28,149 nucleotides of DNA from a virus. The stretch covers positions 1-28,149 of IMG/VR virus record IMGVR_UViG_3300031657_000008, one strand, 5' to 3'. The position numbers were made by a program, and so were the translations under genes. Shown here piece by piece: positions 2,646 to 14,283 of the stretch (within the stretch, counting starts at the first letter, position 1; each line of letters opens with the position of its first letter). Below the pieces are notes generated by a model. That model was not told the origin of the DNA. It worked only from the letters and a program-made list of their open reading frames with translations, and did not search any database.

Positions 2646-3410
2646 TTACCAATTTTGATATGCTAACCCATTTCCCGAATTGTAAAGTGCCGAACGTTCA
2701 TCAGAATTTAAACACTTCGACCATATTGCACATTGGTCTATTAAACCATCCATGTAATATTTTCCTTCATTATTTATGATTGTTGATGCTCCAATTGTAA
2801 TAGGGTGGCTGAGATTTGGAATCCCATACCCATTCTCAGCAATATGAGATTTACCTTCTTCCAAAACAGTATCAACATAGAGGCTAAGGACATCGGTTGA
2901 TTTTTTATAAGTACCAATTACGTGGTACCAAGTACCAGCTGACCATAAATTTGCTCGTGAATAGCAGGCATCTATTCTATAAGAATTCCCAACTGTGAAC
3001 CTAAATTTTCCAGCTTCTGAATAGAAGGATAAAAAATATTCTACCGAATTATTATAGTTATTATACCACTCAATGCCTTTACCGAAAAAGCAATGTCTAT
3101 TATTTTTAGTTTTAACCAAAGATGCCATATTAACCCAACATGCGATAGTCATATCATCTGTTATTGCAAATACATCCCCAATGTTAACCTTATCACCTAA
3201 ATTACTGCCATCAAAAGAGTAAGCTTTCCCTAACTTACCAGTTTCGTTAATTGTAGCCCCTGATATAGTGCCGTTATTACTCCCATGACTGTCATAAGCT
3301 ACTGTCCCTATACTTTCATCCAATTCCCAAACAGAAATTAGTCCATCGAGTAAATCGACCGATGGTTGAATAGTAGCCACTTGCGGAATTTGCATTTTAC
3401 CTAATATCAT
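2646..3410 (-). CDS. LamG/concanavalin A-like tail adhesin
   Basis: This 254-residue protein carries a LamG/pentraxin-like jelly-roll domain from about residue 22 to the end. Diagnostic pieces in order are LISVWELDESIGTVAYDSHG, a GKLGKAYSFDGSN segment, TDDMTIACWVNM, a WYHVIGTYK strand, LSLYVDT, and YYMDGLIDQCAIWSKCLN. Such domains bind glycans and are used by phages as receptor-binding or fibre-decorating modules. The gene lies between the tail fibre and baseplate genes, which fits a host-recognition role. The DNA is clearly more AT-rich than the sheath-to-hub genes, suggesting separate acquisition. The carbohydrate ligand cannot be told from sequence. Confidence 0.75.
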   Translation of the reverse strand: MILGKMQIPQVATIQPSVDLLDGLISVWELDESIGTVAYDSHGSNNGTISGATINETGKLGKAYSFDGSNLGDKVNIGDVFAITDDMTIACWVNMASLVKTKNNRHCFFGKGIEWYNNYNNSVEYFLSFYSEAGKFRFTVGNSYRIDACYSRANLWSAGTWYHVIGTYKKSTDVLSLYVDTVLEEGKSHIAENGYGIPNLSHPITIGASTIINNEGKYYMDGLIDQCAIWSKCLNSDERSALYNSGNGLAYQNW

Positions 3411-9748: not shown

Positions 9749-10358
9749 CTTTTTCCAGTTCAACGGGTAAATCGCTGTACATTTTTATGAGAAAGAACTG
9801 TTGATTTTGGTACCCTGATTTTTGGTCGAGCTTATAATTATGAATTACTGCATTGTAAATTTTGAACAAGTCGAAAAACGGCCCCGATACTTCAATGGCT
9901 TCCGGCAGTTCGCAAATATTAAGCAATGTAGTAACCTGATCCATCGGATACCTGCTTGCGTTTTCGTCTTGTATGCTCCCGCTAATTTCTATGGTATAAT
10001 CATCAAGCGAATAGTATTCTTTTACGCTGCCACTCCGTCCTGTTACGTGTGTACGTCCTATTTTTTTATTTTGTTCAACCATCAAAAGCACACTATCCAA
10101 TTTTATACTCAGCAAAGCATCAGAGGTGCTTTTAAGCGTAACATCGGCAAACACCGGTGTGCCAAACATGCTTACCGGCCACTCGGCCAGCCCCTCATCA
10201 TCCATGCGCTTGTAAATCTCTACCTGTTTGAGTATGCTCATGTACAACCCGGCTTTTGCCGTATTCACAATACCCGCCTCAATACCCAAATCGTCGGGCA
10301 GCGGGTAACTGATGCGCCTGGGCAGCAAGGGGCCGTTGAAGTCGAAATTATAGTGCAT
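9741..10358 (-). CDS. DUF6046-like phage tail protein
   Basis: This 205-residue protein resembles the DUF6046 family of Bacteroidota phages. Its middle part has VTGRSGSVKEYYSLDDYTIE, then ISGSIQDENASRYPMDQV. That is the pattern of tail proteins in which a strand-rich domain precedes a helical region carrying the PEAIEV.GPFFDLFKI motif. It stands between tape measure and hub, the place of Mu gp43/gpN, which acts in tail tip formation. Its ATG lies within the last 11 nt of the tape measure gene (10348-10358), and its stop overlaps the small plus-strand gene. The exact role is inferred from position. Confidence 0.7.
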   Translation of the reverse strand: MHYNFDFNGPLLPRRISYPLPDDLGIEAGIVNTAKAGLYMSILKQVEIYKRMDDEGLAEWPVSMFGTPVFADVTLKSTSDALLSIKLDSVLLMVEQNKKIGRTHVTGRSGSVKEYYSLDDYTIEISGSIQDENASRYPMDQVTTLLNICELPEAIEVSGPFFDLFKIYNAVIHNYKLDQKSGYQNQQFFLIKMYSDLPVELEKVS

Positions 10359-11958
10359 AGTTCACATCGTTGAGTACGCTCTGCAAGGCCATTTTCAGCT
10401 TATCTTTAAAGCTCGAAACATCTGCATCTTTGGCGTTATCGAAAAAGTTGTTGTTCTCGCCAATGAGGCTATCCAGGTTGATGATGATATTTTTGGCCGC
10501 CCGCACATCGCCCGTAATGCTGTCGATGCCGCTTTTAATGCCACCACCGGTCCCGCCTGTCCCTCCTGTTCCTCCGGTTTCTGTACCGCCGGGTTCAGTC
10601 CCCGTACCTTTGCCCGATGAGCTGAACAAGCCAAACATCTTTTCCATGTGGATTATACCCTGTTGGAACTTCATGGCAATTTCCTGTGAAGCATCCGCCG
10701 CACGGCGCGATTCGTACAGCGTGGTCATGGTATCTTTTATGCCTGCAAGGTTGCCTTCAAAAAAACGGATGTCGTAGCCGCCTTTTTCAAGTGCCCGCAT
10801 TACTTCCATTGTCGAAGATGAGCCGCCTTCATAGTTCTTTGCTATAAACCCCCCAATGCTTTCGCGGATCGTTGGATCGTATAGGGCATTAACCTGGTAA
10901 TCCTTATCCGCCTGCGCCATCTTTGGGTCATTGCGTATTTCATCCTGAACAGCCGCAAACGCAGCTTCCATTTTGCGCTGTGCTTCCCATTCCAGGGTTT
11001 GTGATAACCCGGCTTTTTCGTTGAGTTCCCCCAGCACATCCTTTTGTTTTTCTATTGCAATGGTGCGGATGGCCTGGCGGTTGTAGTCAGCCAGGTTGGT
11101 GGTAAGCTTGCCCAGGCTTATGCGTTCGGCATCCAGCCCTTTTACTATGTCGCCGTTAATTTCTTTTAGTTCGGCAAGTATGGTTTTACGCCGCTCGTAA
11201 GGTGTAAGGGTGTTGCTTAGTTCCATAGCGAGGGCGTTCACCTTTTGCCTCTCGTCTTCGAGGGTGCGTGCCAGCGGAACCCTAACCATCTCCTTAGCCT
11301 TGTTAACCATGCCCGACATGCCTGCCATACCCGAGTTCTCAACTGCTGCTTTTATCTGTGGGAGCTCTGCAGAGCCTTCGCGGGCTGCGGCAGCCATCAC
11401 GTTCATCATCTCTGCCATCTTTGCCGATGCAGCAATAGGATCGTCAAGCGAAACCTGATATTGATTCATGGCTGAGGTGAGTACTTCGGTAGCTGCTGCC
11501 GGGTCGTTGCCCAGGGTTTTGCTTAGAATGCTTACCGATTTGCCCATCGCTTCCAAAGCTGCCGGCGTTTTGGCTATTTCGGGCCCAAGCTGCGACAGAA
11601 TTAACTTATAACTCTCAACACTCTTAGCAGCACCGCCGCCAAATTCTTTAGCATTCTGCCTCGCATACCCCCCTATTTCTTTCAGCTTTTCGCCGGTAAC
11701 TCCGGCAATGGCCGAAAGCTCACTCAACTGGCTATCGTATTCAATGCCGGGCTGGATAGCTGCATCGATGCTTTGCTTAACCATATTGAGGGATGAACTG
11801 ATATTATTGAGTGCAAAGGCCTGGTCGCCCAATTTTTTTAAAACATTTCCCAAACGCGTCACCTTTTGCGTGGCGGTATTGCTGGCTGCAGCTACTGCGG
11901 TAAAGCCGGTAGCGGCATTACCTGAAACAGAAAGAATATAATTTATGCTGCTATCCAT
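10348..11958 (-). CDS. Tail tape measure protein (TP901-type core), apparently shortened
   Basis: This 536-residue protein has the TP901 tape-measure core at about residues 65-212 (SQLSELSAIAGVTGEKLKEI, ... SAMNQYQVSLDDPIAASAKM, AAAAREGSAELPQIKAAVEN). The core breaks off after ENSGMA near residue 212 and continues with NKAKEMV and a long charged helical region. A Gly/Thr-rich linker (about 455-475) precedes a helical C-terminus. Usual relatives have several hundred more residues at the break, including hydrophobic segments. Tape measure length sets tail length; at about 0.15 nm per residue this one would give roughly 80 nm. The gene lies directly after the frameshifted chaperone gene, as expected. 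Confidence 0.85.
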   Translation of the reverse strand: MDSSINYILSVSGNAATGFTAVAAASNTATQKVTRLGNVLKKLGDQAFALNNISSSLNMVKQSIDAAIQPGIEYDSQLSELSAIAGVTGEKLKEIGGYARQNAKEFGGGAAKSVESYKLILSQLGPEIAKTPAALEAMGKSVSILSKTLGNDPAAATEVLTSAMNQYQVSLDDPIAASAKMAEMMNVMAAAAREGSAELPQIKAAVENSGMAGMSGMVNKAKEMVRVPLARTLEDERQKVNALAMELSNTLTPYERRKTILAELKEINGDIVKGLDAERISLGKLTTNLADYNRQAIRTIAIEKQKDVLGELNEKAGLSQTLEWEAQRKMEAAFAAVQDEIRNDPKMAQADKDYQVNALYDPTIRESIGGFIAKNYEGGSSSTMEVMRALEKGGYDIRFFEGNLAGIKDTMTTLYESRRAADASQEIAMKFQQGIIHMEKMFGLFSSSGKGTGTEPGGTETGGTGGTGGTGGGIKSGIDSITGDVRAAKNIIINLDSLIGENNNFFDNAKDADVSSFKDKLKMALQSVLNDVNYAL

Positions 11959-11978: not shown

Positions 11979-12158
11979 ATGAAAATTATTGTTTCAATAT
12001 TTGTTTTAGCAATAGCTGCCTGTTTTTTTTACCTGGCTTATGCACTTATCGATGCGGCTGTAACTACATTTATTAGATGGTTTAAAAGAAAAAATCCAAG
12101 AACGGATAATGACAGCCAATCATGGATTGATGAATACAGGGAACGAAATAATCTTTAA
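11979..12158 (+). CDS. 59-residue membrane miniprotein, antisense in the tail operon
   Basis: An ATG at 11979 opens 59 codons ending in TAA at 12156-12158. The N-terminal part (residues 1-31, KIIVSIFVLAIAACFFYLAY onward) is one long hydrophobic segment. It is followed by a positive stretch RWFKRKNPR and a charged polar tail. The layout is that of a single-span protein with a cytoplasmic basic anchor. It lies in the 200-nt gap between the tape measure and chaperone frame-0 ends and overlaps the end of the frameshift extension by 4 nt. TACTTTAG just upstream resembles a -7 element. The role is unknown; it may be a second small accessory gene like that at 9443. Confidence 0.5.
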   Translation: MKIIVSIFVLAIAACFFYLAYALIDAAVTTFIRWFKRKNPRTDNDSQSWIDEYRERNNL

Positions 12159-12322
12159 GCATTACTCCTGCGCTCTCGTTCTCTTATATCAGCTAATTGC
12201 ATGTAGGTTTCTGCCCACTGGTAGTCGCTTAGTGTTTCCGGATCGATGTGCAAAAAATAGCGCATCATAGTGTTAATGTATCCCAACCAGTTTTTTTCTA
12301 ACTCTCCGGAAACACTTTTTAT
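12155..12322 (-). CDS. Tail assembly chaperone, -1 frameshift extension (GT-like)
   Basis: Reading in the -1 frame from the slippery site gives 55 further codons (IKSVSGELEKNWLGYINTMM, RYFLHIDPETLSDYQWAETY, then MQLADIRERERRSNA) to a TAA at 12155-12157. The segment has no good start of its own near its beginning and looks like a genuine helical domain. The fusion with the frame-0 protein would be 158 residues. In lambda and most long-tailed phages the longer product (gpGT) binds tape measure and tail tube during tail assembly. The position directly before the tape measure gene is the classic one. Confidence 0.8.
   Translation of the reverse strand: MKSVSGELEKNWLGYINTMMRYFLHIDPETLSDYQWAETYMQLADIRERERRSNA
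12231..12316 (-). other. 12-bp stem likely stimulating the -1 frameshift
   Basis: AGTGTTTCCGGA (12305-12316, minus strand) and TCCGGAAACACT (12231-12242, minus strand) form a perfect 12-bp inverted repeat enclosing 62 nt. In the mRNA the stem begins 5 nt after the slippery heptamer, within the 5-9 nt spacing known for frameshift-stimulating structures. The long loop may hold further pairing (an A7 and a T6 run) or form a pseudoknot; I cannot fold it here. Confidence 0.7.
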
Positions 12323-12630
12323 AAATTTACGAGTTCGCCTTCCTTTACCGCAATCAGATCTACCAGTTTTGCTGATGCTCCAAAAAATAATTCATCATCG
12401 GTTTTTATTGCCTCGCTACCACCAAGCCAGCTGGCGTTTAGCAGCAGCTCATTACTTTTCATGGGGTTGGTTTGCGCCACGGTAGCCGAATAGGCCAGCG
12501 ACTGGCGATCGGGCTTTTTCAAATACCCAATATGCCCGTCCACTTTTATTGCCCACACTTTGCCGTACTGCTTTTTCCAGGCATCTATTTGTTCCTGGCC
12601 TACCTGGCCTGTTAATTTTTGTTCTTCCAT
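12319..12630 (-). CDS. Tail assembly chaperone, frame-0 product (G-like)
   Basis: This 103-residue protein opens with EEQKLTGQVGQEQIDAWKKQ. Its middle is a conserved-looking YLKKPDRQSLAYSATVAQ and it ends EGELVNL. This form is typical of the short tail assembly chaperone of Bacteroidota phages. The ATG has a strong Shine-Dalgarno (AAAGGAG, minus strand) 5 nt upstream, unlike most genes here. Its last sense codons form the heptamer A AAT TTA, followed directly by TAA. A 20-bp palindrome separates it from the tail tube gene. The frame-0 product would be the abundant form, and a minority of ribosomes would make the 158-residue fusion. Confidence 0.8.
   Translation of the reverse strand: MEEQKLTGQVGQEQIDAWKKQYGKVWAIKVDGHIGYLKKPDRQSLAYSATVAQTNPMKSNELLLNASWLGGSEAIKTDDELFFGASAKLVDLIAVKEGELVNL
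12322..12328 (-). other. -1 slippery heptamer A AAT TTA
   Basis: On the minus strand the frame-0 reading is GTA AAT TTA TAA. The heptamer A AAT TTA fits X XXY YYZ exactly (AAA/TTT after slipping), with the stop codon in the next frame-0 position. The -1 frame then stays open for 55 codons. Confidence 0.85.
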
Positions 12631-12667: not shown

Positions 12668-13081
12668 TTACGGTTTTTGATTCTGTACGCGCAAGGCTAT
12701 CCAGGGCAGGCTTACCTCCATGAACTTATCGCCCTGCTTCATTTCTTTAGCATCTTCGGTAAACTCGATGCCTCGTATTTTGTCGGTAAAGGCCACATCG
12801 CCGTTGCTGGGGTTGCCATATACTACTACGGCATCCATGCGCAGGTTTAGCACGCTGCCTTTGCCCAAGGCACGCAGGGTCTCAAGCTCGCTTTGCAGCA
12901 TCGAGAATTCGCCCTCGTAGCTAAGGTTGCCCCGCTGTATGTGCTGCGGTTCGTTGCCTTTGCCATACACGGCCTCCTTTTCCTGCTTGCTGCTGTACTT
13001 TACACCACGCGCTCCGCTTACTATCCGCCCACCCAGTTCCAGGGTGATGTCGGCATATTCATATTGTCTGCTGTCGAACAT
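12668..13081 (-). CDS. Tail tube protein
   Basis: This 137-residue protein has the size and strand pattern of Mu-type and XkdM-like tail tube proteins. It opens with strands around YEYADITLELGGRIVSGARG, followed by VKYSSKQEKEAVYGKGNEPQ with the typical loop and the HIQRGNLSYEGEFSMLQSEL helix-strand pair. A C-terminal strand set ends in the MEVSLPWIALRVQN segment. It follows the sheath gene at 5 nt and precedes the chaperone genes, the canonical sheath-tube-chaperone-tape order. Hexamers stack into the tube through which DNA passes. Confidence 0.85.
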   Translation of the reverse strand: MFDSRQYEYADITLELGGRIVSGARGVKYSSKQEKEAVYGKGNEPQHIQRGNLSYEGEFSMLQSELETLRALGKGSVLNLRMDAVVVYGNPSNGDVAFTDKIRGIEFTEDAKEMKQGDKFMEVSLPWIALRVQNQKP

Positions 13082-13086
13082 GATTA

Positions 13087-14283
13087 CTATTGTGTTATGA
13101 TTTTAAATCCGAGGTTCACCTCGATGTATTTTGCATAGCCAAAGGGCTTTATGCGCAGGCTTACTACTATCTTGCCGGTGGCCAAAACGTTAAGTGTCGG
13201 GTCAACCAGGCACTCCACGCCGGTGTCGTTTTGGTCGGCGGGGTCGTTGCCAAGTTCGCCGTTTACGGTCATCGAGTTAATGATGGCGTTTTCAACTTTG
13301 TTCTCAATGCTTTTTGCATAGCTCACGCTTACCTGACCCTGGTCATTTACGCTCACCTCATCGAGCAGCTCGGCAGTCATGGTTTCGTAAGCAAGGCGAT
13401 AGGCTTTATCAATTACCCGGCGTACGGCAATGCCGTTATAGTCATCGGTGGGCAGGGTGGCCAGCGGGTCGTCCGTAAAAAAGTATCCGGTGCGGCCTAC
13501 GTGCTGCCGCAGGGTGATGTAGCCTTTGTCGTGTATGCTCTCCACATCGGCATTCTCAACCTTTGTACTGCCTATGAAAGCGTAACCGGCTGAATGGATG
13601 GCACCGTCTTTTACCCGCCCTGCATTGCGCTGCACGGGCATTGCGGCCAATCTTCCGGCCAAAAGGCCAATAGCGCAGCCATCGCCACTTACGGTATCGC
13701 CTACCATCACGGCCACCGTGTTATCGGTGCGAATGGTAAGGTCGGTAAGCGCGGTTCCGGTATAGTACAATCCAGAAACAATTACAAACACGGGTGCCTT
13801 CATGGTTTCCGCGCAATAGTTGCTTACCAGGGTAGCATTGCTGATAGCTGTGAAAACATCAGCATCCAAACCACCAGTGGTAGTTTCGCTGTATGATCCA
13901 GGTGGCGTGCGATGCACAAAAATACCCCGCAGCCTGCCATTGGCATCGTTAAGTAATGTTTTTACATTTTCATCAACATCGAGGTCGAGCATATCGGTCA
14001 TAGTTGACGCATCAGAAAATGCACGCAGCCAAAGCTCTGTGCCTGCTCCGGCAACATCGTAAAACTCTTTGAGTACCTTGTACAAACCGGGGTTGTTTTC
14101 GGCATTTATGCCCAAATCATCCTTGGCATCGTCCAGGCTACGCAAGACGTAGCTGGTTTGCAATGCAAATGTTGAAGGCACAGCCACACCGGTAGTAAGC
14201 AACCCAAACACGCCATCGGGTGATGAAGCTACACGGCCAAGTGCGCCGGTGGTATAGTTAATTTTTATTTTTGGAAGGCTCAT
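13087..14283 (-). CDS. Contractile tail sheath protein (DUF2586-like)
   Basis: This 398-residue protein matches the short sheath type of Bacteroidota phages. Pieces in order are the N-terminal PKIKINYTTGALGRVASSPD with the GVFGLLTTGVAV strand, and LYKVLKEFYDVAGAGTELWL. These are followed by the ADVFTAISNATLVSNYCAET and VAVMVGDTVSGDGCAIGLLA segments, the conserved HVGRTGYFFTDDPLATLPTD loop, and a C-terminal domain ending PFGYAKYIEVNLGFKIIT, which holds the sheath contacts. Its presence shows that the tail is contractile. It shares one base with the small upstream gene at 14283. Confidence 0.88.
   Translation of the reverse strand: MSLPKIKINYTTGALGRVASSPDGVFGLLTTGVAVPSTFALQTSYVLRSLDDAKDDLGINAENNPGLYKVLKEFYDVAGAGTELWLRAFSDASTMTDMLDLDVDENVKTLLNDANGRLRGIFVHRTPPGSYSETTTGGLDADVFTAISNATLVSNYCAETMKAPVFVIVSGLYYTGTALTDLTIRTDNTVAVMVGDTVSGDGCAIGLLAGRLAAMPVQRNAGRVKDGAIHSAGYAFIGSTKVENADVESIHDKGYITLRQHVGRTGYFFTDDPLATLPTDDYNGIAVRRVIDKAYRLAYETMTAELLDEVSVNDQGQVSVSYAKSIENKVENAIINSMTVNGELGNDPADQNDTGVECLVDPTLNVLATGKIVVSLRIKPFGYAKYIEVNLGFKIITQ

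Follow-up and report, generated by a model that had tools for sequence, protein, structure and literature searches.

Tail assembly chaperones of phage lambda (G/GT) and of other phages (Xu et al. 2004, in PMC5009743) are encoded between the tail tube and tape measure genes, and in lambda a short chaperone receives a C-terminal extension from the -1 frame. The locus described here occupies the same place and has the same arrangement. In contrast to lambda G/GT, its downstream hairpin is conserved, and its slip site is A_AAN rather than G_GGA_AAG, a heptamer found here in Flavobacterium phage fF4 alone. The distance from slip site to stop differs as well: it averages 26-36 nt in the PRFect collections (PMC10885494), whereas here the stop follows one codon on in nearly all relatives.

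A second parallel is provided by dnaX of Escherichia coli, in which an upstream Shine-Dalgarno (SD) element, the slip site A_AAA_AAG and a downstream stem follow one another. The order seen in part of the present family is the same: an SD-like stretch, about 10 nt, A_AA(A_AA)R, about 6 nt and then the stem. In a minority of bacterial dnaX genes, too, the shift site is followed at once by the frame-0 stop (PMC5009743). Unlike dnaX, however, the gene is a phage tail gene, its slip site is often a tetramer only, the SD part is patchy, and the stem spans about 85-95 nt, compared with a short hairpin. The A_AAG signals of the IS3 family (PMC4066793) likewise rely on a Z_ZZN tetramer or on A_AAA_AAG, and their hairpins, simple or branched, measure 17-140 nt, a range that includes the hairpin described below. 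Gene function differs from that of the IS3 family, and no sign of a pseudoknot was found here.

The -1 open reading frame (ORF), the A_AAN site, the position of the stop, the covarying stem and the gene order are all observed in this phage and its relatives. From these sequence features we infer that ribosomes undergo programmed -1 frameshifting in the gene for the tail assembly chaperone, yielding a G/GT-like pair of proteins, with a probability of roughly 90%. The same proposal had been made in a sequence-only reading of this DNA, and conservation now lends it strong support.

The putative chaperone locus and its relatives

The window, which denotes the whole 28,149-base virus record analysed here, encodes a Mu-like portal (PF06074). 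Its minus strand carries, in order, a tail sheath (DUF2586, 13087-14283; PF10758, E 3e-54), a tail tube protein (12668-13081; PHROG 9206/4579), the putative tail assembly chaperone (12319-12630) and a tape measure protein (10348-11958; PHROG 28, E 1e-12, with a PF10145 match at E 6.5e-6 that is under the curated cut-off). The order sheath, tube, chaperone and tape measure recurs in the loci of relatives, and the gene sits where tail assembly chaperones are normally encoded, after the tube and before the tape measure. The phage is best explained as a relative of the Winoviridae of Bacteroidota, Mu-like and with a contractile tail, and its host, judged from the named relatives, would be a member of the Bacteroidota. 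On the plus strand, a 59-residue membrane-like ORF (11979-12158) lies inside the tail operon, tail to tail with the -1 ORF. Two relatives (L015 and L016) encode similar proteins in the same place, and hydrophobic ORFs occur at this site in several others.

The frame-0 product is a gpG-like protein of 103 residues that matches PHROG 19076 (E 1e-32), a family without an assigned function. Pfam returned no match for the chaperone or for the -1 domain. The AlphaFold model of the frame-0 protein reaches a pLDDT of 90.6. In Foldseek searches it matched the uncharacterised protein 3fgx, while the HK97 tail assembly chaperone 2ob9 supplied the second and third PDB matches, both weak (E 0.3-0.7); in BFVD, several annotated tail assembly chaperones were among its weak matches. 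Comparison of the predicted structure leads towards tail chaperones, through matches that are weak.

Behind the chaperone stop, a T-like domain of 55 codons plus a stop is encoded in the -1 frame (12155-12322, minus strand), reading from ATA at 12322 to 12158 and closing with the stop at 12157-12155. The predicted fusion comprises 158 residues; both this length and the 55-codon frame had been given by the sequence-only reading and are confirmed. Conservation was assessed over 92 distinct loci with usable junctions, drawn from viral contigs and phage records, and over a non-redundant set of 69 relatives thinned to <75% identity. One match in genome contigs (L011) proved false and does not count among them. 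In 92/92 relatives a -1 ORF, some 52-72 codons long, begins exactly at the chaperone stop, down to a protein identity of about 26-32%, and the -1 proteins share a PDxL...W core. In many relatives the -1 frame is closed just 4 codons upstream of the junction, so the shift must fall within the last few codons.

Named relatives include the Flavobacterium phages pippi8-1 and FPSV-S1 (Winoviridae) and a prophage-like region on an Aureibacter plasmid, with junctions ATA AAA AAG ATA TAA, TTA AAA AAG GTA TAG and TTA AAA AAA ATT TAA, respectively. These isolated Flavobacterium phages share the design, which their annotators missed; in the pippi8-1 record, a downstream piece of the extension is annotated as a gene of its own (gp39). 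Departures from the family pattern were also encountered. Flavobacterium phage fF4 (L126, about 3165-3195; Winoviridae) carries the lambda heptamer G_GGA_AAG with a stop four codons later, and the putative slip site of its lineage thereby departs from A_AAN. In Meiothermus phage MMP17 (L128, 4508-4975) and Thermus phage Riverbug (L129, 4513-4978), the ORF of 39-51 codons that comes after the gene at the chaperone's place is in the +1 (or -2) frame, not the -1 frame, which suggests a different direction of shift in that lineage.

Putative slip site and stop codon

The chaperone ORF (12630-12319, minus strand) ends in GTA AAT TTA TAA. The heptamer A_AAT_TTA, pointed out earlier as the slip site, is present at 12322-12328 and is directly followed by the frame-0 stop, at the coordinates originally given. 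It is not the conserved site of the family. An X_XXZ_ZZN heptamer occupies this position in 5/69 non-redundant relatives, the window included; three of them (L015, L016 and L025) share A_AAT_TTA and another (L024) has AAATTTT. One codon upstream, by contrast, 62/69 junctions carry A_AAN, formed by the second-last sense codon and the base before it (A_AAT at 12325-12328 in the window). The tetramer extends to a full heptamer in 20/69, mostly A_AAA_AAR, and is absent from 7/69. The base preceding the second-last codon is A in 64/69 relatives, against 31 +/- 3.8 expected from codon usage. This excess of third-position A spans eight amino acids and hence reflects a constraint acting on nucleotides: the junction carries a slippery Z_ZZN or X_XXZ_ZZN sequence that is conserved at nucleotide level. 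The last sense codon usually encodes Leu, with Cys, His, Tyr, Ser and others also found, and being variable it need not re-pair.

The frame-0 stop (TAA, 12319-12321) lies one codon after A_AAN and thus within the spacer, a position kept in nearly all relatives. Free codon and stop together set a spacer of about 6 nt between A_AAN and the stem, or 8 nt in the window, which falls within the usual slip-to-stimulator distance of 5-8 nt (Sharma et al., PMC4066793). Side observations concern both codons. TAG is the junction stop in 41/69 relatives (59%), compared with 43 of the 363 other ORFs that end within these loci (12%); the third stop base starts the next -1 codon, and a preference for Glu there may be the cause. 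Among the 58 relatives of the thinned set with Leu at codon -1, CTG accounts for 2% against a background of 31% and TTA for 31% against 16%, with the scarcity of CTG becoming milder once close relatives are counted.

Where exactly the window itself would slip is a sub-question within the frameshift reading. Tandem slippage on A_AAT_TTA, a codon downstream of the site usual in the family, would give ELVNL-IKSVSG, whereas slippage on A_AAT would give ELVN-F-IKSVSG. The heptamer is a perfect X_XXZ_ZZN that abuts the stop and has a 12-bp stem behind it after a spacer of 5 nt, and it recurs in the three relatives mentioned above; moreover, A_AAU by itself shifts poorly as a tetramer in E. coli (PMC4066793). 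On the other side, this heptamer position is filled in few relatives in comparison with A_AAN, those ending in GTA AAC TTA do without a heptamer, and the required move of tRNA-Leu from UUA to UUU is not cognate. Tandem slippage in the window is judged somewhat less likely than not. By E. coli rules the site is weak under either choice, given that A_AAG is the best tetramer there, A_AAU is barely active and A_AAU_UUA does not appear in the list of efficient heptamers (PMC4066793). The frameshift rate in the window may therefore be low, which may suit a tail chaperone.

The downstream stem and the upstream element

A perfect 12-bp stem follows the heptamer after 5 nt. It pairs the 5' arm AGTGTTTCCGGA (12305-12316, minus strand) with the 3' arm TCCGGAAACACT (12231-12242), which lies in the codons of DPETL, and encloses a 62-nt apical region (12243-12304) that folds weakly in the window. 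The repeat, its spacing and its loop length agree with the sequence-only reading, which needs amendment in two respects: the -1 coding region contains the whole stem, 5' arm as well as 3' arm, and the loop it called unusually long is normal for the family, where 48-69 nt separate 14-nt arms. In codon shuffles, a perfect stem of 12 bp starting no more than 10 nt from the heptamer arose in 1/20,000. A 115-nt region of the window folds at -28.8 kcal/mol, compared with -17.2 +/- 2.9 in dinucleotide shuffles, a stability 4 standard deviations beyond the shuffles and matched by 0/200 of them; among synonymous shuffles that keep the -1 protein, 0/100 fold as well. Rfam yielded no match of note.

Across relatives, the 5' arm starts right after the stop, where pairing peaks exactly, and codons of a DPDSL motif supply the 3' arm. 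Exchanging arms between relatives weakens mean pairing from -12.9 to -8.9 kcal/mol (z -13). Covariation between the arms, which the sequence-only reading had proposed looking for, was found in 61 relatives, in which the arms were located from the DPDSL motif and from how far they lie from the stop, shifted by 2 nt for the four members of the window's group. The score is 0.241; shuffles give 0.151 +/- 0.012, and slid registers do not exceed 0.10. Examples of covarying arm pairs are AGGCTG/CAGCCT, AACAGGC/GCCTGTT, AAGCATCAG/CTGATGCTT and AGTCATCAG/CTGATGACT. When the window is taken together with the three relatives closest to it, 94% of cells are paired (21-42% in slid registers), with compensatory changes at 5/12 pairs.

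With the -1 protein held constant, the stem is significant (p <= 0.05) in 35/61 relatives, where about 3 would be expected. The remaining 26/61 have no significant stem at the DPDSL place; some of them form other local or longer hairpins and others none that is significant. For some relatives without the stem at this place (L033, L041, L120, L119 and L042), single-sequence folds put another hairpin at about the same start, a hint that evolution preserves where the structure begins but may replace the pairing partner. A covariation-conserved structure 4-10 nt downstream of the slip site is thus a property of the family, not of every relative. The earlier reading had looked to relatives for the fate of -1 frame, stem and heptamer; the -1 frame is kept in all of them and the stem by covariation, whereas the AAATTTA heptamer is not conserved.

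The long loop had also raised the question of a pseudoknot, here taken as H-type, or of a stimulator acting at long range; in either case the stem would belong to pairing that reaches beyond the hairpin. Such a loop leaves room for pairing, and stimulators of this kind operate in IS3411 and in barley yellow dwarf virus (PMC5009743). The loop nevertheless pairs with downstream sequence no better than synonymous shuffles do, in the family (z 0.0 +/- 0.15) as in the window, and in many relatives it folds on itself. An arrangement of this type is accordingly very improbable. Because the region between the arms folds more than expected in the family (z -1.3), with an apical hairpin in many relatives, and downstream pairing shows no excess, the putative stimulator is best read as a long hairpin, to which many members add branches or extensions, and not as a pseudoknot.

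Upstream of the slip site, an SD-like element, AAAGGAAGG (12338-12346, minus strand), stands 9 nt before A_AAT. Its excess over synonymous shuffles is a family-level result: codons -9 to -4 pair with the anti-SD at -6.15 kcal/mol, compared with -4.59 in synonymous versions (p 2e-4), and form the strongest anti-SD dip along the chaperone gene. For the window itself, anti-SD pairing showed no excess over synonymous shuffles. Where codon -7 encodes Glu, GAG is used in 32/48 cases, compared with 33% elsewhere (p 1e-5), with GAG and GAA mixed over the tree. The element is patchy, and many relatives are without it. Pairing of an upstream GAGGC with the 3' arm was considered as the cause of GAG at codon -7 and rejected for want of an association (10/29 vs 5/14). 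A trade-off between slip-site type and SD strength was not significant (p 0.16).

The chaperone start codons of relatives show no SD (0.18 vs 0.14 shuffled); several gene starts in the window, that of the chaperone included, do carry one. Bacteroidia ribosomes are reported not to recognise the SD (PMC9976891), and together with the SD-less starts of relatives this implies that the element is either used unexpectedly or selected for another reason. It probably stimulates the shift in part of the family, and we count it as a lead. That Bacteroidota phages use an internal SD for frameshifting, so that elongating ribosomes, or those without bS21, could make use of their anti-SD, is a rather unlikely extension of this idea; if true, tail assembly could respond to ribosome type.

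Proposed mechanism and significance

Most ribosomes would end at the frame-0 stop and release the 103-residue chaperone. The hairpin, 5 nt past the AAT-TTA codon pair, would hold up a minority, and these, on nearing the end of the gene, would shift by -1 and go on to produce the 158-residue fusion. In the family, slippage would most likely occur on A_AAN, followed by one free codon, the stop and the stem; in the window's group, the Asn-Leu pair AAT TTA also yields A_AAT_TTA as a second candidate slip codon. If lambda gpG/gpGT is a guide, tail assembly on the tape measure may depend for support on the proportion in which the two products are made.

Two further explanations dispense with ribosomal frameshifting. 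In the first, chaperone and -1 ORF would be separate genes, the latter translated by termination-reinitiation at the stop with no fusion formed. The ORFs do abut at the stop, and the pippi8-1 annotators treated gp39 in just this way; yet the first -1 codon is NTA and rarely NTG, ATG, GTG and TTG are all absent within 15 codons in 36/69 relatives, and reinitiation assigns no role to the selected third-position A upstream of the stop, which together make it very improbable. The second, transcriptional slippage on an A-run, could draw on the 6-8 A before the stop in some relatives, but is scarcely credible when the longest such run is at most 4 in 48/69 and 3 in the window.

A description of this junction was not found in the searchable literature, which covers a minority of subscription papers. 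As far as could be searched, the signal layout is therefore new for this phage group, although its kind is well known. The proposed frameshift suggests a likely function for the unnamed family PHROG 19076, and points to a predicted fusion product missed in published Flavobacterium phages, where annotation splits or omits the extension. The fixed layout of A_AAN, free codon, stop and stem, with arms that vary and yet remain paired, offers a natural series on what a -1 stimulator needs. Finally, an SD-like element amid SD-less chaperone starts makes the use of the anti-SD by elongating Bacteroidota ribosomes testable.
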